DNA of 64,000 nt from Scytalidium lignicola (Eukaryota; Ascomycota; Leotiomycetes): the NCBI GenBank assembly GCA_002812745.2, contig NCSJ02000203.1, positions 1-64,000 on the forward strand, written 5' to 3'. Numbering within the stretch: position 1 is the first letter of the stretch; each line of letters starts with the position of its first letter. Shown one piece after another: positions 11,814 to 64,000 of this stretch. The notes below the pieces were generated by a model, which saw only the letters and a list, made by a program, of their open reading frames with translations, did not search any database and was not told the DNA's origin. The translations under genes and the position numbers were made by a program.

Positions 11814-12691
11814 CGAGAATATTTTAGAAAAGGTAATTATATAGGTCTGACTAAGAGGTTCTTCTCTTGCTATATAGCGGATAACACATCAAAAGTCGGA
11901 AAACTGCTAGATATCATCCTTATATATCTCGATCCATTTCTTTGTTTAACCTCGGATCCCCGACTATTTCGTTAATATAGTCTACGACCCATCTAGTGCC
12001 AGATGAGGGGTAACCTGCCGTGATTACCGTTCCAATCGTAATTGATGGATCCATGACCCCTTTGACCGTTTAATACTCTTGGATGTTTGGTATTCGAATC
12101 ATCTCGGCTCACTCGATGAGCTAACTGACGCATCACCCCATATTGATGAGATAGCTAGATAAGCAGTAAACAATGACACATTGGAGAGGCGATTTCTCTG
12201 ATAGTTTAGTAACCCCCAACTACTTTTATTTCCCATCTATCAACTGTGGTATGATAGCGAGCAGGTTTTCATGATACGAAAAATCCCCATTCCCCATGTA
12301 GCCAATCACAACAGGAGGGGTACCTCTGCGAATTGCCGATGTGCATTAACGGGAGCCAATCATGAATGTTGAATTGCCGACAACCCAAAGCTAAACTGCC
12401 GATAGAGAGCTCTAGAATGTTGACAGTGTCTTATATCGAGAGTTAGGGGGATCATCAGTTCAATCATGATATGTGATACGCAAAATTACCGTGGAAAACT
12501 ATCCGAAAAGAGGAGAGAGTACGTATTTCTCTACATCGAGTAAATATTGATAATACCAGCCAATACATTCCTAGATACCTATCTTCTTATCAGCTTGCCT
12601 TTCTCGAAGCAAGCAGTATTTATTCAATGCTCTTCAACCATATTGTTCTTTAAGTTTCCTTATTGAATACATTCTTAATATTAACAATAAG
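11814..12691. other. divergent promoter region between amidohydrolase and permease
   Basis: The two genes are transcribed away from each other across this 0.88 kb. It contains repeated GATAA/TTATC-type words (for example around 11876 and 12160), compatible with nitrogen regulation by GATA factors. No coding frame seen. Confidence 0.4.
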
Positions 12692-29282: not shown

Positions 29283-31215
29283 ATGCATATCTTTTTAGAC
29301 AACCCAAACCTTAAACCAGAGAATCGAGCGGATACCAACCTAAAACACAGAGCACTTACTCAATTTGAGCTCAAGAACCGTCAATTATATCGATTGCCTG
29401 ATTCACACCATCCAGAACCAAGATATGCTATACAAGATAGTAAGGTATTTGATATTATTGCACAAGAACATATCAAACTCCTTCATGCAGGACGAGATAA
29501 AGTATAGCCAGTAATTGAGCAAAATTACTATAAAATTAAACGTGGTGAGGTTGAATAGATATTCAAAAGATGTAAAAACTGTTCTCTGAACAGGCCATCT
29601 GCTATTAAAACTCCTCTTGAACCTATTGTTTCTGAGAGAGCTTAAGAACATATTCAGGTGGATTTGATTGATATGAGGCATGAACCATCTGGCCAGTACA
29701 AGTGGATATTGCATATCAAAGACCATTTTACCAAATATTCACAATTATATCCACTTAAAAGTAAAGAATCAATTCCAATTGCACAAGCATTTGCCCAATT
29801 TATCATAACTTTTTTNACCTCCTAAAATAATTCAATGCAACAACAGCAAAGAGTTCAAAGGTGCCTTTCTTATCATATTACGCAAATATAATATTCGAAT
29901 AATCAATGGAAAGCCTAGAACACCTCAAACTCAAGGTCTTGTTGAACAGGCAAATGGAGTAGTTGAAGCTAAAATCAGAGCTTGGAAAATGGATAATGGT
30001 TCAACTGAATGGATTGATGGATTAGTGGAGATTGCTCTAGCAATTAACATTCAAAAACACTCAACAATTAATTGTACACCTGCTGAATTATTATTCAGAG
30101 ATCATAGCACTTATATTGATTGGTTGGACAGTCAAAAACGCAAAGATCTTACAATTGGAGTGTTTCAAGAAGATCCTAATCAACCTCCAATATTTGAGAG
30201 TGATATAGAACCTGAATTACCAATTGATCCACAATTGTTATCTTTAAGCAATTCAAGGGTTAATATTGATATTCAATCACAATCACATTCTCAAATTACC
30301 ATGCGTATTAGCCCTGAAAGTAGCTCAGAGATCAATGTACGAATTACTCCACCAATCAGGGATTCTCCTGAACAGTGGTATGACACTGAAGCCAATATTC
30401 AAACCAGCATTGAAGTTGACTCTCCTATGACTACAACTACAGCTACAGCTACAGCTACTATTGCTACAGCTACAGCTACTATGGCTACAGCTACAACCAC
30501 TATGGCTACAGCTACCACAGCTACTACAGCTGCTACGGCTACTACAGCTACTACATCTACTACAGCTACCACAGCTACTACAGCTACAGCAATTCAATCA
30601 ACAGATCCAGTGATCNAGAAAGCTCAACAATCAACACAAAAAGCAAGAGTTAGAATGGTAGAAAAGTACTCGAAAAAACACGATATTCAACACTTTGATA
30701 TTGGAGATATTGTTTCAATCAAAGTTCCAAGAGAAGATAGAACAGCTACTGATAACCGACGGTTATTTGGACGAATATTAGATGAACTACACTCTCATAG
30801 ATATAAAGTTATTACTCAATCAGGAATCATTAACCGGCTAATGCCAACTAAGGATTTAAGGGTGGTTGATAAAAGCCTTTGGCCAGATATTACCATTCTA
30901 GAAAGCACAAAACAAATCACTTTAACTTTGGCAGCTAGGGAGGCATCTACAAGCTAACGAATTGGGATATCATGCCAATGTAAAGGTCAGTGTAGTACTA
31001 AAAGGTGTCGTTGTTTTAAGGAAGGCAAAGATTGTACTGTACACTGTCATAAAGATGAGCATGATTGTGGAAGGTTATCAAGGCTAGCTATTCGTACAGA
31101 ACAAGCTTTAATTGAACCTGAAAGCTCTAATTCTAGGAGAAAGCGAGCAAGGGCAGATACTGTAGGTAATGTTGTTAGTTTAACTGGCCTTGGAGTAGCA
31201 ATTGATTTGGATTAG
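29283..31215 (+). pseudogene. integrase-type transposase with CXC tail, multiply broken
   Basis: The frame opens MHIFLDNPNLKPENRAD. It carries an H-x-H/CxxC zinc-binding region (EHIKLLHAGRDKV ... CKNCSLNRPS), then an rve integrase core with VDLIDM (first Asp), the CNNSKEF segment and GLVEQANG (Glu). A low-complexity Thr/Ala stretch and a chromodomain-like DIGDIVSIKVPRED region follow. The tail, after a TAA at 30955-30957, reads CQCKGQC...KRCRCFKEG, a CXC DNA-binding motif. In-frame stops are TAG 29505-29507, TAG 29556-29558, TAA 29643-29645 and TAA 30955-30957, each one C-to-T step from Gln. The second catalytic Asp of the DDE triad is Asn (AAC at 29839-29841) and the next Gly is Ser, both G-to-A changes. 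The n at 29816 adds a base that breaks the frame. Both change types are what RIP-like mutation would leave. The enzyme is dead. Confidence 0.8.
30427..30594 (+). repeat. ACT/GCT trinucleotide-rich low-complexity tract inside the transposase
   Basis: Imperfect (GCTACA/ACTACA)n array coding a Thr/Ala-rich linker with scattered Met and Ile. It is likely length-variable between copies. Confidence 0.7.
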
Positions 31216-55553: not shown

Positions 55554-56441
55554 ATGGCGAAGTCCCGAATAAACCAGTTCCGGATATGCTTTGTTTCATT
55601 AGCACTAATTGTAACACTACTTATCGTAACATTTCCACTGTTAAGCAGTCGGTCGCTGTCCTCAATATTTCTCGACCTAAAATCAACACCAGCAAAGGCG
55701 GATGACAAGCACGCGCACAAGACGATATACAACCCCGGAGAAGAAGTTCTCAAGGACACCTCTAGGTCCCAGAAGAACGGAAATCCCAAATTTCTCTTCG
55801 AGTTTCGCGAGCGTCCCGACATAGAGTCATTAGACAGCAAGTTTGACGAAGCATGGCATAACACGATGAACACACCCCTTGGCGGGTTTCTGCTGGTCGA
55901 ACATAATGAAACATATTACCGCGGGTGGGGGGTTAGCATGTTCCATAGCATCCACTGCCTAGGGATGCTACGAATGTCTTTTCAAAATTATTTCGGGCTT
56001 GCCGACGGGAATAGTGACCATGGGGCTCATATTCATGGACATGGATCTGCAGGACGGCGCAGTATGGCAAACTTATCCATGATAGATGAGAGACAGCACG
56101 TGGAACACTGTTTGGGGTATATTGGCAGAGTGAGTTCTCTCCATTCCCCTGTAGCTGACCTGATATTGTACGAATGAGTGTGAAAGCTGACTACATAATT
56201 TTTCTTCTTCATCTTCTAGGCACTGCTCTGCAATGGCGATGATACCTTAGAGCCACCATTTGGAAAGTTGGACTCCGAGGGCAATGTGTTATGGAGTGCC
56301 GTTAGTGGGGAAGGACACCAACATTCATGTCGGGATTCGACTCTAGCTTGGCAGACCGTGTTTGGTTCTGAAGAGCAACCTGTTAAACCGTTCGAATGGT
56401 CTCCAGGTGATACTATTCAGAGTATATTTGGAAGAGACTGA
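55554..56441 (+). CDS. UstYa-family oxidase 1 (cyclic-peptide biosynthesis)
   Basis: Two exons (55554-56129, 56220-56441) with a 90 nt intron give 265 residues. The start MAKSRINQFRI leads to a single membrane helix (ICFVSLALIVTLLIVTF), as in UstYa (DUF3328) proteins. The two diagnostic HxxHC motifs are present: MFHSIHCLGMLR and RQHVEHCLGYI, followed by the conserved CNGDDTLEP region and a Trp/Cys-containing tail (SCRDSTLAWQTVF). UstYa proteins are metal-dependent oxidases or cyclases that close rings on ribosomal peptides such as ustiloxins. Between the motifs lies a His-rich insert (DHGAHIHGHGS), unusual for the family and a possible extra metal site. Located 4 kb from the precursor gene. 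No lesion. Confidence 0.9.
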
Positions 56442-56590
56442 AAACATTTTATATACTACGGCTGTACCTCACTAGATAAAGTAATAAAATTTTACGAGTT
56501 GAGGAAATAACACTAATTTTATTATTATACTATCCATTTTCAGACTGTATGTTCTGTACAGCGCTGCATGGTTTTTCAACCTTTAACTAT

Positions 56591-57676
56591 TCAATGAAAA
56601 TGCTCAACTCGATAATCCCCAGGCCTCGGAAGTAGGGTAGTGTTCGAATCCAGCTTTGTCATGTGTAGCATCATCCAGTCGTGAAGTGTCTCAAAGTCGC
56701 GGCAGGTGTGAACACGACTAAACTCTGGATCCGTCTGGCCATCATCTCCGACCCAATAAAATGGAACGAGGCCGACATCAGAGGTGCACATTATCCGCTG
56801 CCGCAGGTTGTCTATACAATGATCTAGGAGGAGGAGCGTGCAATGTTAGCCGTCTTAGGTAGAATAGAAATGGTCCATGAGTATTCTCACTTACCAACAT
56901 GGATTGCAAGATCCCTATCGGGATGCTGAAATTCTCCCATGCCTTGCTTGCGATAATAATCATGGTTGTACCAGGTCGCCTTGCGAAGTAAATTCTATAA
57001 GCCATAAGTCAGTCATACCACGCTGTAGAAAACAAAATAGTTCGTGCACAAATGAAAGCACTTCCATACCAGGCAATGCAGCTGATGAAAGACTTCAAGG
57101 TCTGCAGGAATTCCTTTCAGGTAACCATGATCTGCACCGCCAACAAGGTGAATGTGATCAGTTGTTAAGTCAGACTCTTGCTCCTGATCCTCAGGTATTA
57201 GAAGAAATCCAACTGTCACAACATTAGTATAACAACATAGCTTGTATCAGCAAGGAAGGAAGTGAATAGTATGTACAATTAGCTCCTGCAAAGTCCCACG
57301 CAGCATCTGTCTTAGGAGACGGAGGATTGCGGTATCGGCTCCCTTGGCTAAAGAAGGTCGAGTCAAACTTGACTGTTCTTGTCTTGAGGTTCAGATCTCG
57401 AAGCATCGGTGTCAGATGGGGGGGTTCTGCAACAGATGCCTGACCACGGCATTGCGGTCTTGTGGAGTTGGTGATCCAATACGTAAACAAATTCGTCACA
57501 CAGAGCAGTGCCGTGATGCCTATAGCCATCCCGTACCATGACCAACGTGAACTCCGAGTTGTCCTTGGAGCTGCTGCGTATAGTCCAGCCTCCTCTGAGA
57601 GAAGGTGTCCATTGTCGGCTTCTTCGAGATCCGACAAGCTCTCAGTATCAACATCGTCTTTCTCGAAACTGGACAT
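56591..57676 (-). CDS. UstYa-family oxidase 2
   Basis: Four exons (57676-57277, 57212-57070, 56994-56895, 56823-56591) with introns of 64-75 nt give 291 residues. An acidic cytosolic N-terminus (MSSFEKDDVDTESLSDLEE) precedes one membrane helix (MAIGITALLCVTNLFTYWI). FHQLHCLNLLRK is the first HxxHC motif and HVDHCIDNLRQ the second, spaced as in UstYa/UstYb proteins; the tail has HTCRDFETLHDW. It converges with UstYa gene 1, their 3' ends only 150 bp apart, as common in dikaritin clusters. Two UstYa-type proteins usually act together as a pair in these pathways, so 1 and 2 may form one (inference). Confidence 0.92.
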
Positions 57677-58684
57677 TGTTTTCTTTTCTTCTTTATTAAT
57701 TTTTTTGTTTTGGTTTTGGTTTTCAGTTGAAACTAGCTATGACTGAGAAGTGAGTTGGTTAGGTGGAATAATTCTGTACCAGCGACGAACTCCCCGACTT
57801 GCGGGATTACGGCTTGCTCACTATTAACTAAATGAGGCAGCTGTGAAGGTACTGCAGTGAAGCAATCATACAGCACTAGCAAGAGAGCAACTCACTTGCC
57901 CATATTAGGTAATAATACTAGTCAACTCCTAGGTTTGTTTCATTGAAATGGGTTGCTCTTACTGTACAATACTAGTAAATCTAGATAAGGTGTTGTGAAG
58001 AGGACCACTTCGCTCACTAATGGCAGGAGATTCTACTCCGCCCGGCTAAGCTTGAAATGGCACTAATAAGCGGATGCGGTTATGTGTGGACTTTACAACC
58101 GTACTCCTAATAAGCACTACTTCACATCCGCTAGTGCTGCCGTTAGCAACCGTTAGCAACGCCTAAAATGGCAGCTCCCGCGTTACGTGACTCCGACTTT
58201 TCTGTCTGTGCGCACGCCACTTGATGCAATTCAATGCCGCTTTATTGATACTTAGTATTTGGCATACTCCCTAGACTCTGTAATAGCCACTTACATTCAC
58301 TGCTTTATACATTGTCTAGACATTTGTTTAATTAATTCCTGGAGGTTTTTCATGTGTAAATGATTCTTGGACTTCCTTGATAGTATTTAAATATGAAATT
58401 ACTACTAAAGTACGCGCAAATATGGAAAGTAAACCTCCATACACTATACCCATCGATGTGGTGGAATAAGAAGACCAGGGCCCTGTTTTGGCAACCATAT
58501 GGAGTTGATCCAGCTTCATCTTTATTTTGTTAAGTGGTAGTGATCATTTGAACTACACAATGCTTGGTTACTATTTTCAAGTGCTATAATTAGTCCCTCA
58601 TCTTGATCGTGATGGAATTAGACACAATAAAAGTCGATAGACGCTGGATTTCTGAATCTTTATCACACGATATTGTGAAGACAA
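57677..58684. other. 1 kb intergenic
   Basis: Promoter region of UstYa gene 2 with a poly(T)/GTTTTGGTTTT tract just upstream of its ATG. A short minus-strand frame at 58519-58328 has a hydrophobic segment but no family match and was not called. Confidence 0.4.
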
Positions 58685-59403
58685 TTATTCTAGAATTATC
58701 GCCGAACCTGCCCAAGGTGTATTTCTACACCGATAGAAGCCAATTTCCACCTCATTGACCGCGTCCTCTCCTTCCCTCCCTTCCGTAAGCTGATCAGCAC
58801 AGTGACTTGTGTGATGAAGGCTGATAGTCTTATTGTCAATGTACGGTTCCTGATTGTGGATGGCGTACATGACCTTCCGCCACTGGAACAGGCAGTGTTC
58901 TCCATGGTAGATGTGTGTGAAGATCTTCACATTTCTGCCCTGCCAAAGTGATTCCGAATCAACCTCGTTCTGCTTAACGGATTAGATGGTATACCAGAAC
59001 TACTTTGTGAGTGGAATAGGGCAATTACAATCAAGTCCTTCTCGAGGTACCACTTTCTATCTTCAAAGACCGGATATCGATCGGATAGCTCTTGGTAAAC
59101 GCACTGCCTTGGCATCCAGCCATAGAACAATGGTTCCATTACACATCCGCGTCGCATCGCTTCTTCACTTGATCTTCCACAGTGATTCCAATCTTCTTCT
59201 AGCGCATCCCGAGGCCCTCGTGTTACCCTGAGCCAAACTCCTGCGTTTACCGCAATGCCGACAAGGACGAGCAAAGCCAACACGCTGGCAACAATTTTGC
59301 TCCGGCAATCCGTGCAATCCAGTTTTCTTCCTTTTCTATGATGCTTTAAAGCTCCTACCTGTTCATATTGAATGTAGTCGCGAGTTTCATCTTTATGCTC
59401 CAT
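58685..59403 (-). CDS. UstYa-family oxidase 3 (divergent subgroup)
   Basis: Two exons (59403-59029, 58969-58685) with a 59 nt intron give 219 residues. An upstream in-frame ATG at 59532 exists, but MEHKDETRDYIQYEQVG is the usual kind of start. The cytosolic part ends in a CTDCR motif, the membrane helix is KIVASVLALLVLVGIAVNAGVWL, then a cysteine-containing CGRSSEEAMRRGC and FYGWMPRQCVYQELSD. IYHGEHCLFQWRK and HHTSHCADQL are the two HxxHC motifs. This variant belongs to the UstYa-related group with a FYGWMP-type segment often found in other metabolite clusters. Its role may be a different oxidation from that of the pair at 55.5-57.7 kb. Confidence 0.88.
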
Positions 59404-60395
59404 CTGTCGACCAAGAGATAAGTTGAAGAAATGTCGAGTAGGATGAAGGGTGGGAAAGCAATGAGTATGAGGGGGAGGCAAAAGATTGAAAATCCTAAGA
59501 GCATAGCATGGAGGCGCGGCGACAATAACCAAATCTTACGAACAGGAGAGCGAAGGGTAAGAGGGAGTGAAACTTGTAACCAGGTGCAGGGGGCAGACAG
59601 AACTCAATACTTATCGTTTATCGTTTTAACCTAGGCTTTGAGCATTAACCCTGCTCGGTAGGTCATACTTATAAAAGTATACTAAATGCAGCAAGCAGAA
59701 CTTGCCTTATTGATAATAATCTCCACTTTAACCTTTTGTAAATTCTTTAGACTTACTGGCCCCTGCTGTCAGACAAGGGGATAATTCGTAGCTATGCAAA
59801 GTGCTGACCGATATCGATTTGTGTGATAACATTCTGCCGAGACCTCCGGATTACCCTTACTAGTGCTGTATTAATATGCGTTAAGTCCTTGGGTAGATGC
59901 TACATCGACTCCTAAAAGGCCTCCCAATCTGATATACAGCAGTCAAGAGTTCGCTAGCGTAGAAATTGATAATCAACACCTGCCACAATTGGCCAAGTGC
60001 TGACAATACGTGCAGATATTTCGGCAGATTTTGGGTGTTTAAGTACTCACACTTTGTGTGCTGTTAGAATCTATCTCATTACAGTGTTGTCTCGTAATAA
60101 CGAGCTGCTTGTTGTAGTTAATGACTCCTCTAGAACCTGTTATTCTATTCTCTTCTATGTATCGCATGTAACGTCAACGTACTGAGCGAGCTTCCTTATT
60201 GAGGAGGGCCGAGCCTTGGCTAAGGCAGTTTATAATCCTTTAGAATTACTTGTTTCTGAGTTAGAACATAGAATAAATAACTCTTTCATCCTTCTTGTTC
60301 CATTCAGTTCAGTTCTATTCACAGAAACTCATCCTCAAACGTTACCAATCACACTTGTTTACTCGGTTCATTATTTTTTTCTCCNAAAAAAAATC
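59404..60395. promoter_or_regulatory. intergenic region holding the precursor-peptide promoter
   Basis: No gene seen. A TTTATAAT TATA-like word at 60229-60236 and a C/T-rich stretch from about 60283 to 60384 (typical fungal core-promoter and leader composition) precede the precursor ATG. There is an ambiguous base at 60385. Confidence 0.4.
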
Positions 60396-60660
60396 ATGAA
60401 GGTCACACTTTTCGCTCTTGTCGCCCTTTTTGGGGCTGCGTATGCTGCACCAGTTGCACAGAAGAGTGGTATGAAATGTTACCCCAATTATAAATAATGT
60501 ATACTAAAGTTGTTAAGATGCTGTGGAGAAGCGTGAACAGCTCCAGAACTTGTTTTATGTTCCCGCGGGAGCTGAAGGTGATGCTGTGGAGAAGCGTGAA
60601 CAGCTCCAGAACTTGTTTTATGTTCCNGCGGGAGCAGAGGGTGATGCCGCAGCTAAGTAG
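60396..60660 (+). CDS. secreted RiPP precursor with two Kex2-bounded repeat units (dikaritin-type)
   Basis: Two exons (60396-60468, 60518-60660) joined by a 49 nt intron (GTATGA...GTTAAG) give 71 residues. An N-terminal signal peptide (MKVTLFALVALFGAAYA, cut near AYA-AP) is followed by a short spacer and two 21-residue units. Each unit contains DAVEKRE, with Lys-Arg for Kex2 cleavage, then LQNLFYVPAG and an acidic end; a short DAAAK closes the protein. The DNA units (63 bp, 60518-60580 and 60581-60643) differ only at wobble positions and one ambiguous base. Signal peptide, KR-bounded repeats and a core with Phe-Tyr beside UstYa genes is the layout of ustiloxin, phomopsin and asperipin precursors. 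The core here is not one I recognise. Possible product: a Tyr- or Phe-crosslinked cyclic peptide; bioactivity unknown. Confidence 0.88.
60518..60643 (+). repeat. two tandem 63 bp precursor repeats
   Basis: In-frame tandem repeat, period 63 bp (21 codons). Near identity between the units implies recent duplication or gene conversion; copy number may vary among strains. Confidence 0.9.
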
Positions 60661-62929: not shown

Positions 62930-63740
62930 TTATCCAGAAGGTGTATATAAGCTGTCGAAGTTCTTATATCCTATGCCCTTGACGAATGTCTGAAGCCATG
63001 GGCCCTGCGTCTTTGCATCCGCAAGCTCCCAGTAGAGTTTCGCATGCGCCTCTCCGTCGACCCGGTACTTGGCCGTTCCGTCGGCCTTCCGTTCGTCGCC
63101 ATAATAGAATCTACAAATCATTTAGTGTCTTCGCGAGGGAATCTAAGGGGATAGATAGCCTACTTGAATCCACGATCTTTATATGCAGCAGCAGCAGCAC
63201 GGATCATGTGCGCGCCCGCCGACTTGCCCATGCCTTGGCCAAGAAATGATGGGAGGATTGTAACGTTCAGAATATTTCCTGTGTAGATGAATGTTCTTGA
63301 CGCAGAATCCGAGAGCTGTGAAAAGCTTAGGGCAGCCTGTTGTGCGGCGATAAACGCACTGGTGACATTGATGGCTGTGTCTCGATTGAAAGCAGCCAAT
63401 GGGAGGGCGAACGGGTCATTAGCGGGGGTGAGGGTTGAGGCGCTGACTGATCTCTTTAGAAGGCGTACAACTGCATCCTTAGGTATTAGAGCTTACCATT
63501 GTACACAACTACACTTGGGATGCCCAGCACTTTTTTAACTTTGGTGAAGGCATTGACAACATCATCGGGGTTGGCGAGATCACTCGTGATATTCAGTTGT
63601 TTGTCTGTGCTGTCTGCCTCTCTCAGTGACCGAGCTGCGAGGGCAACCTTGTAGCCTTTCGAGGCAAAAGTCCGAGCGACAGCCTGGCCGATATTTGGTC
63701 CTGCTCCGAAGATGAGAATGACTGGAGATGTGCTGGTCAT
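62930..63740 (-). CDS. short-chain dehydrogenase/reductase
   Basis: Three exons (63740-63497, 63446-63164, 63110-62930) with introns of 50-53 nt give 235 residues. The Rossmann motif is VILIFGAGPNIGQAVAR (GxGxxIG variant of TGxxxGIG), then LAARSLREAD after strand 2. NRDTAINVTSAFIAAQQA follows, then RTFIYTGNILN at the Ser strand. The usual YxxxK is not clear: the stretch after it reads FLGQGMGKSAGAHMIRAAA, with Lys but no Tyr four residues earlier, as in some SDRs annotated only as Rossmann-fold proteins. It could be a cluster enzyme, given the precursor 2.3 kb away, or unrelated. Confidence 0.82.
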
Positions 63741-64000
63741 GATGTTGAGCGCAGGGAGAAGAAGTCAGGAGTAAGTGCTGCCCAGCAAGAAGCTTTTCAC
63801 CTGCTATATATGTTGGCTAGTGGATTCTTGCGTATCCAGGCTATCACGTAATCCAAATGTTTTGATACTTGTCGAAATATGTACAGGGATTCGGTGCCGC
63901 GAGAATTCTGCGGGCCGGGTTTATAATTAAAATCTACTGGAGCGGACGTCTCGTAGACTCCGGCAGGGTTTATAATCAAATTAAAGATCTACGGAGCGGA
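63741..64000. promoter_or_regulatory. promoter of the SDR with a direct repeat
   Basis: GGGTTTATAAT(T/C)AAA...ATCTAC.GGAGCGGA occurs at 63917-63946 and again, with a 6 bp insertion, at 63966-64000. It may be a tandem regulatory unit or a repeat continuing beyond the edge. Confidence 0.4.

Follow-up and report, generated by a model that had tools for sequence, protein, structure and literature searches.

Four adjacent genes of the soil and wood mold Scytalidium lignicola, three of which encode HxxHC proteins (g1 to g3) and the fourth a repeat-containing precursor peptide, probably constitute a compact dikaritin-type cluster for a ribosomally synthesized and posttranslationally modified peptide (RiPP), in which a [F/Y]YVPAG core is oxidized by binuclear-copper enzymes without a tyrosinase. 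The genes lie near the end of the window, which is a stretch of 64,000 nucleotides from contig NCSJ02000203.1 of this fungus (here C115). The cluster is a dikaritin-type variant of a kind that is already known, and its unusual element is the recurrent family to which g3 belongs.

The original prediction described three UstYa proteins, each with a membrane helix and two HxxHC motifs. The motifs are exactly as claimed, with all six motif residues present in every enzyme. The assignment to UstYa holds for g1 and g2, whose scores with the Pfam profile of UstYa (PF11807; curated cutoff, 25 bits) are 64.3 and 183.3 bits, respectively, but not for g3, which has no match to this family. Hydrophobic segments (Kyte-Doolittle, 19 residues) score 2.7 in g1, 2.5 in g3, and only 1.7 in g2, and the N terminus of the precursor scores 2.0; the signal peptide and membrane helices are judged from hydrophobicity alone. 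The reading frames of all four gene models (Table 1) are open, and their introns are of the GT...AG type and keep the frame. The precursor had been placed within 1 kb of g3, and the measured gap is indeed 992 bp; its 71 residues are intact and include two KR-bounded repeats of 21 residues.

Table 1. Gene models and other features of the candidate cluster, numbered from the first nucleotide of the window.
Feature	Coordinates	Strand	Remarks
g1, UstYa/DUF3328 oxidase, 265 amino acids	55554..56441 (exons 55554-56129 and 56220-56441)	+	HSIHC131, HVEHC182; Pfam UstYa
g2, UstYa/DUF3328 oxidase, 291 amino acids	57676-57277, 57212-57070, 56994-56895, 56823-56591 (four exons)	-	HQLHC176, HVDHC213; Pfam UstYa
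g3, separate HxxHC family, 220 amino acids	58685..59403 (exons 59403-59029 and 58972-58685)	-	HGEHC148, HTSHC179; without Pfam UstYa match
Intergenic region between divergent g3 and precursor genes, 992 bp	59404..60395	.	Candidate shared promoter
Precursor gene, 71 amino acids	60396..60660 (exons 60396-60468 and 60518-60660)	+	Signal-like N terminus, two KR-bounded repeats
Precursor repeat unit 1, 63 bp	60518..60580	+	...DAVEKR-EQLQNLFYVPAGAEG
Precursor repeat unit 2, 63 bp	60581..60643	+	Three positions unlike unit 1, including N at 60627 (third base of a Pro codon)

The sequence of the precursor matches the NCBI hypothetical protein B7463_g8833 of S. lignicola with 100% identity. In the precursor a signal-like N terminus is followed by APVAQKSDAVEKR, then by EQLQNLFYVPAGAEGDAVEKR, and then by EQLQNLFYVPAGAEGDAAAK. 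Besides the N in repeat 2, another N stands 11 bp before the gene. According to PMC6256649, which calls S. lignicola a saprotrophic opportunist, the draft genome (DSM 105466, an isolate from oak leaf litter) comes from Ion Torrent reads of 140 to 260 bp. Because this is a short-read draft with an N inside repeat 2, the true number of repeats may exceed two. Among 73 candidates, limited to approximately 39 to 124 residues, the only precursor relatives at E values up to 10 were the precursor itself and P0002, a 78-residue open reading frame (ORF) on a 2,498-bp Joint Genome Institute (JGI) contig, probably from a metagenome. P0002 is 48.6% identical to the precursor and has three YYVPAGAEG units with two EKR sites between them. 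Comparison of these units with the precursor identifies [F/Y]YVPAGAEG and a tail towards EKR as the part common to the two sequences. No other copy of the precursor was found in its own genome, where matches are confined to its own two exons. The core had been described as unrecognized, in agreement with our literature search: YVPAG, FYVPAG, and YYVPAG occurred in no relevant main text searched (supplements excluded), the one match being unrelated, and the available part of PMC6339444 has no match to a YVPAG-type core.

DUF3328 is the class-defining enzyme of the dikaritin RiPPs in PMC12048977, which also reports that the definition of Ding (2015) includes a tyrosinase. The cluster has DUF3328 enzymes (g1 and g2) and a putatively secreted precursor with its core repeated between Kex2 sites; there is no tyrosinase on C115, and the 11 tyrosinase matches of the genome lie elsewhere. 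As described in PMC6514808, the cluster of asperipin-2a (aprA, aprY, aprT, and aprR) is likewise a small four-gene cluster with DUF3328 and without tyrosinase, and has a repeat precursor and a Tyr-containing core. It differs in the core and in having one DUF3328 protein rather than two plus g3. It also has a transporter and a reductase, whereas no transporter was matched here and an ORF of the short-chain dehydrogenase/reductase (SDR) type is not tied to the cluster. The ustiloxin B cluster (ustA, ustYa, ustYb, ustQ, and others), in the description of the same paper, is similar in its pair of UstYa-type proteins and in a repeat precursor that Kex2 processes. It differs in requiring the tyrosinase UstQ and in having 16 repeats and more tailoring genes. 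Trichoderma RiPP cluster 55 was set aside as a counterpart, as its legend in PMC7099791 names no DUF3328 gene.

The precursor also resembles the Kex2-processed repeat proteins (KEPs) surveyed by Umemura in 2020 in its signal peptide, its KR-bounded repeats, and the nearby DUF3328 genes (PMC7329392). In that survey 1,758 of 7,878 KEPs are near DUF3328 genes, and therefore such clusters are not rare. The survey demands at least three repeats, a rule that does not admit a precursor with two; the KEP types named for Scytalidium in its main text are G-2, for the most part regarded as pheromones (121 of 138), and G-3, which has a di-His motif. We classify the cluster as a dikaritin-type variant because the precursor lies outside this rule and its core string appears in no relevant main text.

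We propose that the precursor would enter the secretory pathway and that Kex2 would cut after each KR, sites for which are present, releasing EQLQNLFYVPAGAEGDAVE... or the C-terminal variant, each with the conserved core. Lumenal dimers of the UstYa proteins g1 and g2, with a binuclear copper center on the two HxxHC motifs, would then consume O2 and introduce one or two oxidative cross-links, which would most likely join the Tyr of the core to the beta carbon of a side chain; this type of link is proposed because of published work on CctR, AprY, and asperipin. As its motif residues are conserved, g3 may be a third copper protein that acts on the same peptide or serves g1 and g2, and the acidic tail would finally be trimmed by general proteases. 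The DUF3328 protein CctR is a dimeric oxidase, anchored in the membrane, that has a binuclear copper center and depends on O2; a dependence on copper and O2 is also reported for the cyclase AprY (PMC12435403). The enzymes of the cluster resemble CctR in the arrangement HxxHC(x)nHxxHC, a single membrane helix, and a lumenal catalytic domain. CctR differs in that it hydroxylates a nonribosomal peptide, and g3 differs from it in its other conserved Cys residues as well as in lacking a Pfam UstYa match. From the copper-O2 chemistry of CctR and AprY, a match to a Kex2-type proprotein-convertase P-domain elsewhere in the genome (C80), and the absence of a tyrosinase from the contig, we infer an asperipin-like, tyrosinase-free cross-linking at the core Tyr. 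The claim of a compact cluster making a cross-linked peptide is sustained as far as its two UstYa oxidases, its Kex2-type repeat precursor, its compactness, and signs of conservation are concerned; the cross-linked product itself stays a prediction.

Searches with three members of the g3 family revealed 13 further loci of the family in the S. lignicola genome. Ten of the 13 lie within 10 kb of UstYa, in zones that make up 1.3% of the genome (38 UstYa positions, collapsed from 54 exon-level matches). Assuming uniform placement and counting only search-scored candidates, the binomial probability of this proximity is 3e-17 by locus, a figure that treats neighbors as independent, and 2e-12 by contig (7 of 9). 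When 188 kb around g3-family loci (19 stretches) were scanned for repeats bounded by dibasic sites, four ORFs emerged, of which three are convincing (C340, C365, and C44); the fourth, at C635 (L025), was set aside as degenerate and without a signal peptide. Ten codon-order shuffles of this DNA yielded no repeat ORF, a weak control since shuffling destroys any tandem repeat. No repeat ORFs were found in 40 kb around C157 and C628, two g3-family loci without near UstYa matches, or in the remainder of the window and the end of the contig. At C340:26163-30891 (L034/L035) a g3-family gene is accompanied by two UstYa genes and by a four-unit KR precursor with a signal-like N terminus. The order there, UstYa(-), g3-family(-), precursor(+), UstYa(+), resembles g2(-), g3(-), precursor(+) of the window, and the g3-family gene and the precursor are again divergent; the single ORF of this g3 paralogue contains the first HxxHC motif only. 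KR-bounded repeat ORFs also stand beside g3-family and UstYa genes at C44:87201-87920 (minus strand, L031) and C365:4281-4667 (plus strand, L028), both without a start or signal peptide and likely with an upstream exon. One of eight UstYa loci has a repeat ORF (L001, C188); there, near C188:93708, four PPYHPNIDV-type units between KR sites lie close to the genome's best UstYa match.

These loci bear on the possibility that Kex2 converts the precursor into a linear signal or pheromone-like peptide and that its gene simply adjoins a UstYa cluster with a different substrate. In the Umemura survey 6,120 of the 7,878 Kex2 repeat proteins are not near DUF3328 genes, and P0002, the sole homologue of the precursor, was not seen beside g1 to g3. 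Against this stand the short gap between the divergent g3 and precursor genes, the repetition of this arrangement at C340, and the repeat precursors beside g3-family and UstYa genes at C44 and C365. In addition, the precursor repeat contains Tyr, as do 65.6% of the repeats in DUF3328-associated proteins of that survey versus 38.2% of the others. We regard a linear peptide as unlikely and favor a substrate of the neighboring oxidases.

Our results indicate that g3 belongs to a family separate from UstYa as defined by Pfam. It has no match to UstYa at E values up to 1 and nothing above any Pfam cutoff; the Pfam column is empty in 65 of 65 g3 relatives, whereas PF11807 is given for 55 of 55 relatives of g1 and g2, and the g3 relative P0003 has no NCBIfam match. 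We aligned 25 sequences, namely, g3, 18 selected from its 65 relatives (P0006 not among them), and 6 of the 13 paralogues. All 25 have H148, H151, C152, H179, H182, and C183, as well as C87 and C101; C75 is present in all 24 and C207 in all 23 of the sequences that extend to them. Profile comparison of g3 with UstYa (hhalign) gave a score of 33.3 with a probability of only 36%, the two motif regions alone being aligned. None of 200 column-shuffled controls reached this score (best, 24.5), and smaller profiles gave probabilities of 13.9% and 2.2%; the same comparison between the g1 and g2 families gave 98.9%. An AlphaFold model of the g3 relative from Trichoderma semiorbis, with a mean predicted local distance difference test (pLDDT) score of only 69.0, has a transmembrane-like helix at 36-67 and motif helices at 146-162 and 175-186. 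This model and that of a g2 relative (pLDDT, 63.8), both of low confidence, agree in that a membrane helix is followed by a strand, two motif helices, and a second strand. In having a membrane helix and then two helices that bear HxxHC(x)nHxxHC, the layout of the UstYa superfamily, g3 appears UstYa-like in build; its membership in UstYa is unproven and perhaps remote.

A superoxide dismutase identity is considered unlikely for g3. Its matches to Sod_Fe_N (E, 0.006) and, with the family profile, to PDB chain 1xre_A (E, 0.00047) and 11 weaker ones cover about 30 to 45 residues around the metal motif and probably reflect a likeness of metal-binding helices rather than membership. A PDB fold search with the model of the g3 relative gave five matches up to an E value of 10 and none at 0.001 or better, and PDB sequence searches with g2 and its profile gave nothing useful. 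Among viral contigs scanned for g3, 54 pattern matches included no relative, and the entries IPR053008 and PTHR35896 do not occur in the literature searched. We tentatively raise the possibility that the g3 family is a second, unnamed HxxHC family and a regular partner of UstYa within peptide clusters of fungi, either as an independent binuclear-copper peptide oxidase or as an accessory that supplies Cu(I) or electrons. An accessory handing Cu(I) or electrons to UstYa enzymes has been postulated by the authors of the CctR study (PMC12435403).

In a search of 5.8 billion proteins, 65 relatives of g3 were found at E values up to 0.001 (214 candidates) and 55 relatives of the g1 and g2 profile at up to 1e-5 (5,814 candidates), 25 of them closest to g1 and 30 to g2. 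Relatives from Trichoderma and Xylariaceae sp. FL1272 are 52 to 63% identical to g1 and 60 to 71% to g3, and those from Trichoderma alone are 65 to 83% identical to g2; these identities include 63% of g1 to a Trichoderma protein and 72% of g2 to a T. harzianum protein. Colocation of relatives was judged from equal "longest contig" sizes rather than from viewed DNA. Nine contig sizes are common to relatives of more than one trio gene: 4,589 bp for all three; 19,700 (T. chlorosporum), 1,223,730 (Xylariaceae sp. FL1272), 13,764, and 28,845 for g3 and g1; 9,883 and 969,135 for g3 and g2, the g2 relative at 969,135 being only 35% identical; and 60,852 and 64,116 for g1 and g2. The taxa concerned are Trichoderma, Xylariaceae, Dothidotthia, and metagenomes. 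The T. chlorosporum relatives of g3 and g1 carry the tags V8C35DRAFT_326250 and _326248, which differ by two, so that a single further gene would fit in between, as in the window. This is good but indirect evidence that g1 to g3 form a conserved cluster.

Several observations weigh against our interpretation, among them that P0002 was not seen beside the trio. All three genes occur together on just one shared contig size; only 7 of 65 g3 relatives share a contig size with a g1 or g2 relative, leaving 58 of 65 without a partner, and the g3 family is wider than the trio. The members from Hyaloscypha variabilis F and T. harzianum are on contigs of unequal size. In T. chlorosporum motifs are broken in both g1 (P0084, HVEHY) and g3 (P0006, HGEYC instead of HGEHC), and for this reason the cluster may be decaying in that species; a motif is likewise missing, wholly or in part, from P0079, P0069, and P0071, for which annotation is possibly responsible. 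Finally, no methyltransferase, transporter, or peptidase was found among 10 ORFs scanned at 44 to 64 kb, 5 of which matched no family; a match to the major facilitator superfamily and one to an M20 peptidase lie approximately 40 kb from the cluster.

The patchy distribution of the trio relatives, the broken motifs of T. chlorosporum, and the N bases inside and just before the precursor gene would suit a silent or decaying relic of a formerly active cluster. As the four reading frames are open here, each enzyme has its six motif residues, and the motifs are kept in most aligned relatives, we consider such a relic quite improbable. It is more improbable still that the trio modifies another small molecule and that the precursor is irrelevant. 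CctR does provide a precedent, being a DUF3328 enzyme of the pathway to the nonribosomal peptide cyclochlorotine (PMC12435403), but a Pfam scan of 19 ORFs, a subset of those that flank the trio, gave no match to a nonribosomal peptide synthetase or polyketide synthase. A RiPP cluster acting on the adjacent precursor is the reading that we retain.

The nearest scanned ORFs with a Pfam match are DUF7730 (51.9 to 53.0 kb) and SDR (63.5 to 63.8 kb). The SDR ORF pair at 63163-63764, of which one ORF was scanned, lies approximately 2.5 kb past the precursor and may be a cluster reductase or an unrelated neighbor. Judged by eye, ORFs downstream of the cluster at C115:69120-70795 (L019/L020) resemble a pogo/Tc1-type transposase, and an ORF at 29809-30954, with a low-complexity Thr/Ala stretch, resembles a retrotransposon integrase. 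Elsewhere in the genome a tyrosinase match lies approximately 3 kb from a UstYa match (C228:8933-9655 and 12427-12657), possibly an ustiloxin-like arrangement.

The genes described here are a concrete cluster with a predictable product mass and a core not found in the literature searched. In this genome the proximity of the g3 family to UstYa oxidases greatly exceeds what uniform placement would give. Should the members of this family be catalysts, or suppliers of copper or electrons, the family would bear on the question of which accessory serves the UstYa copper enzymes (PMC12435403). The g3 family could then also become a second marker in genome mining for fungal RiPPs, one that would help to find clusters missed by the three-repeat rule, including those with two repeats.

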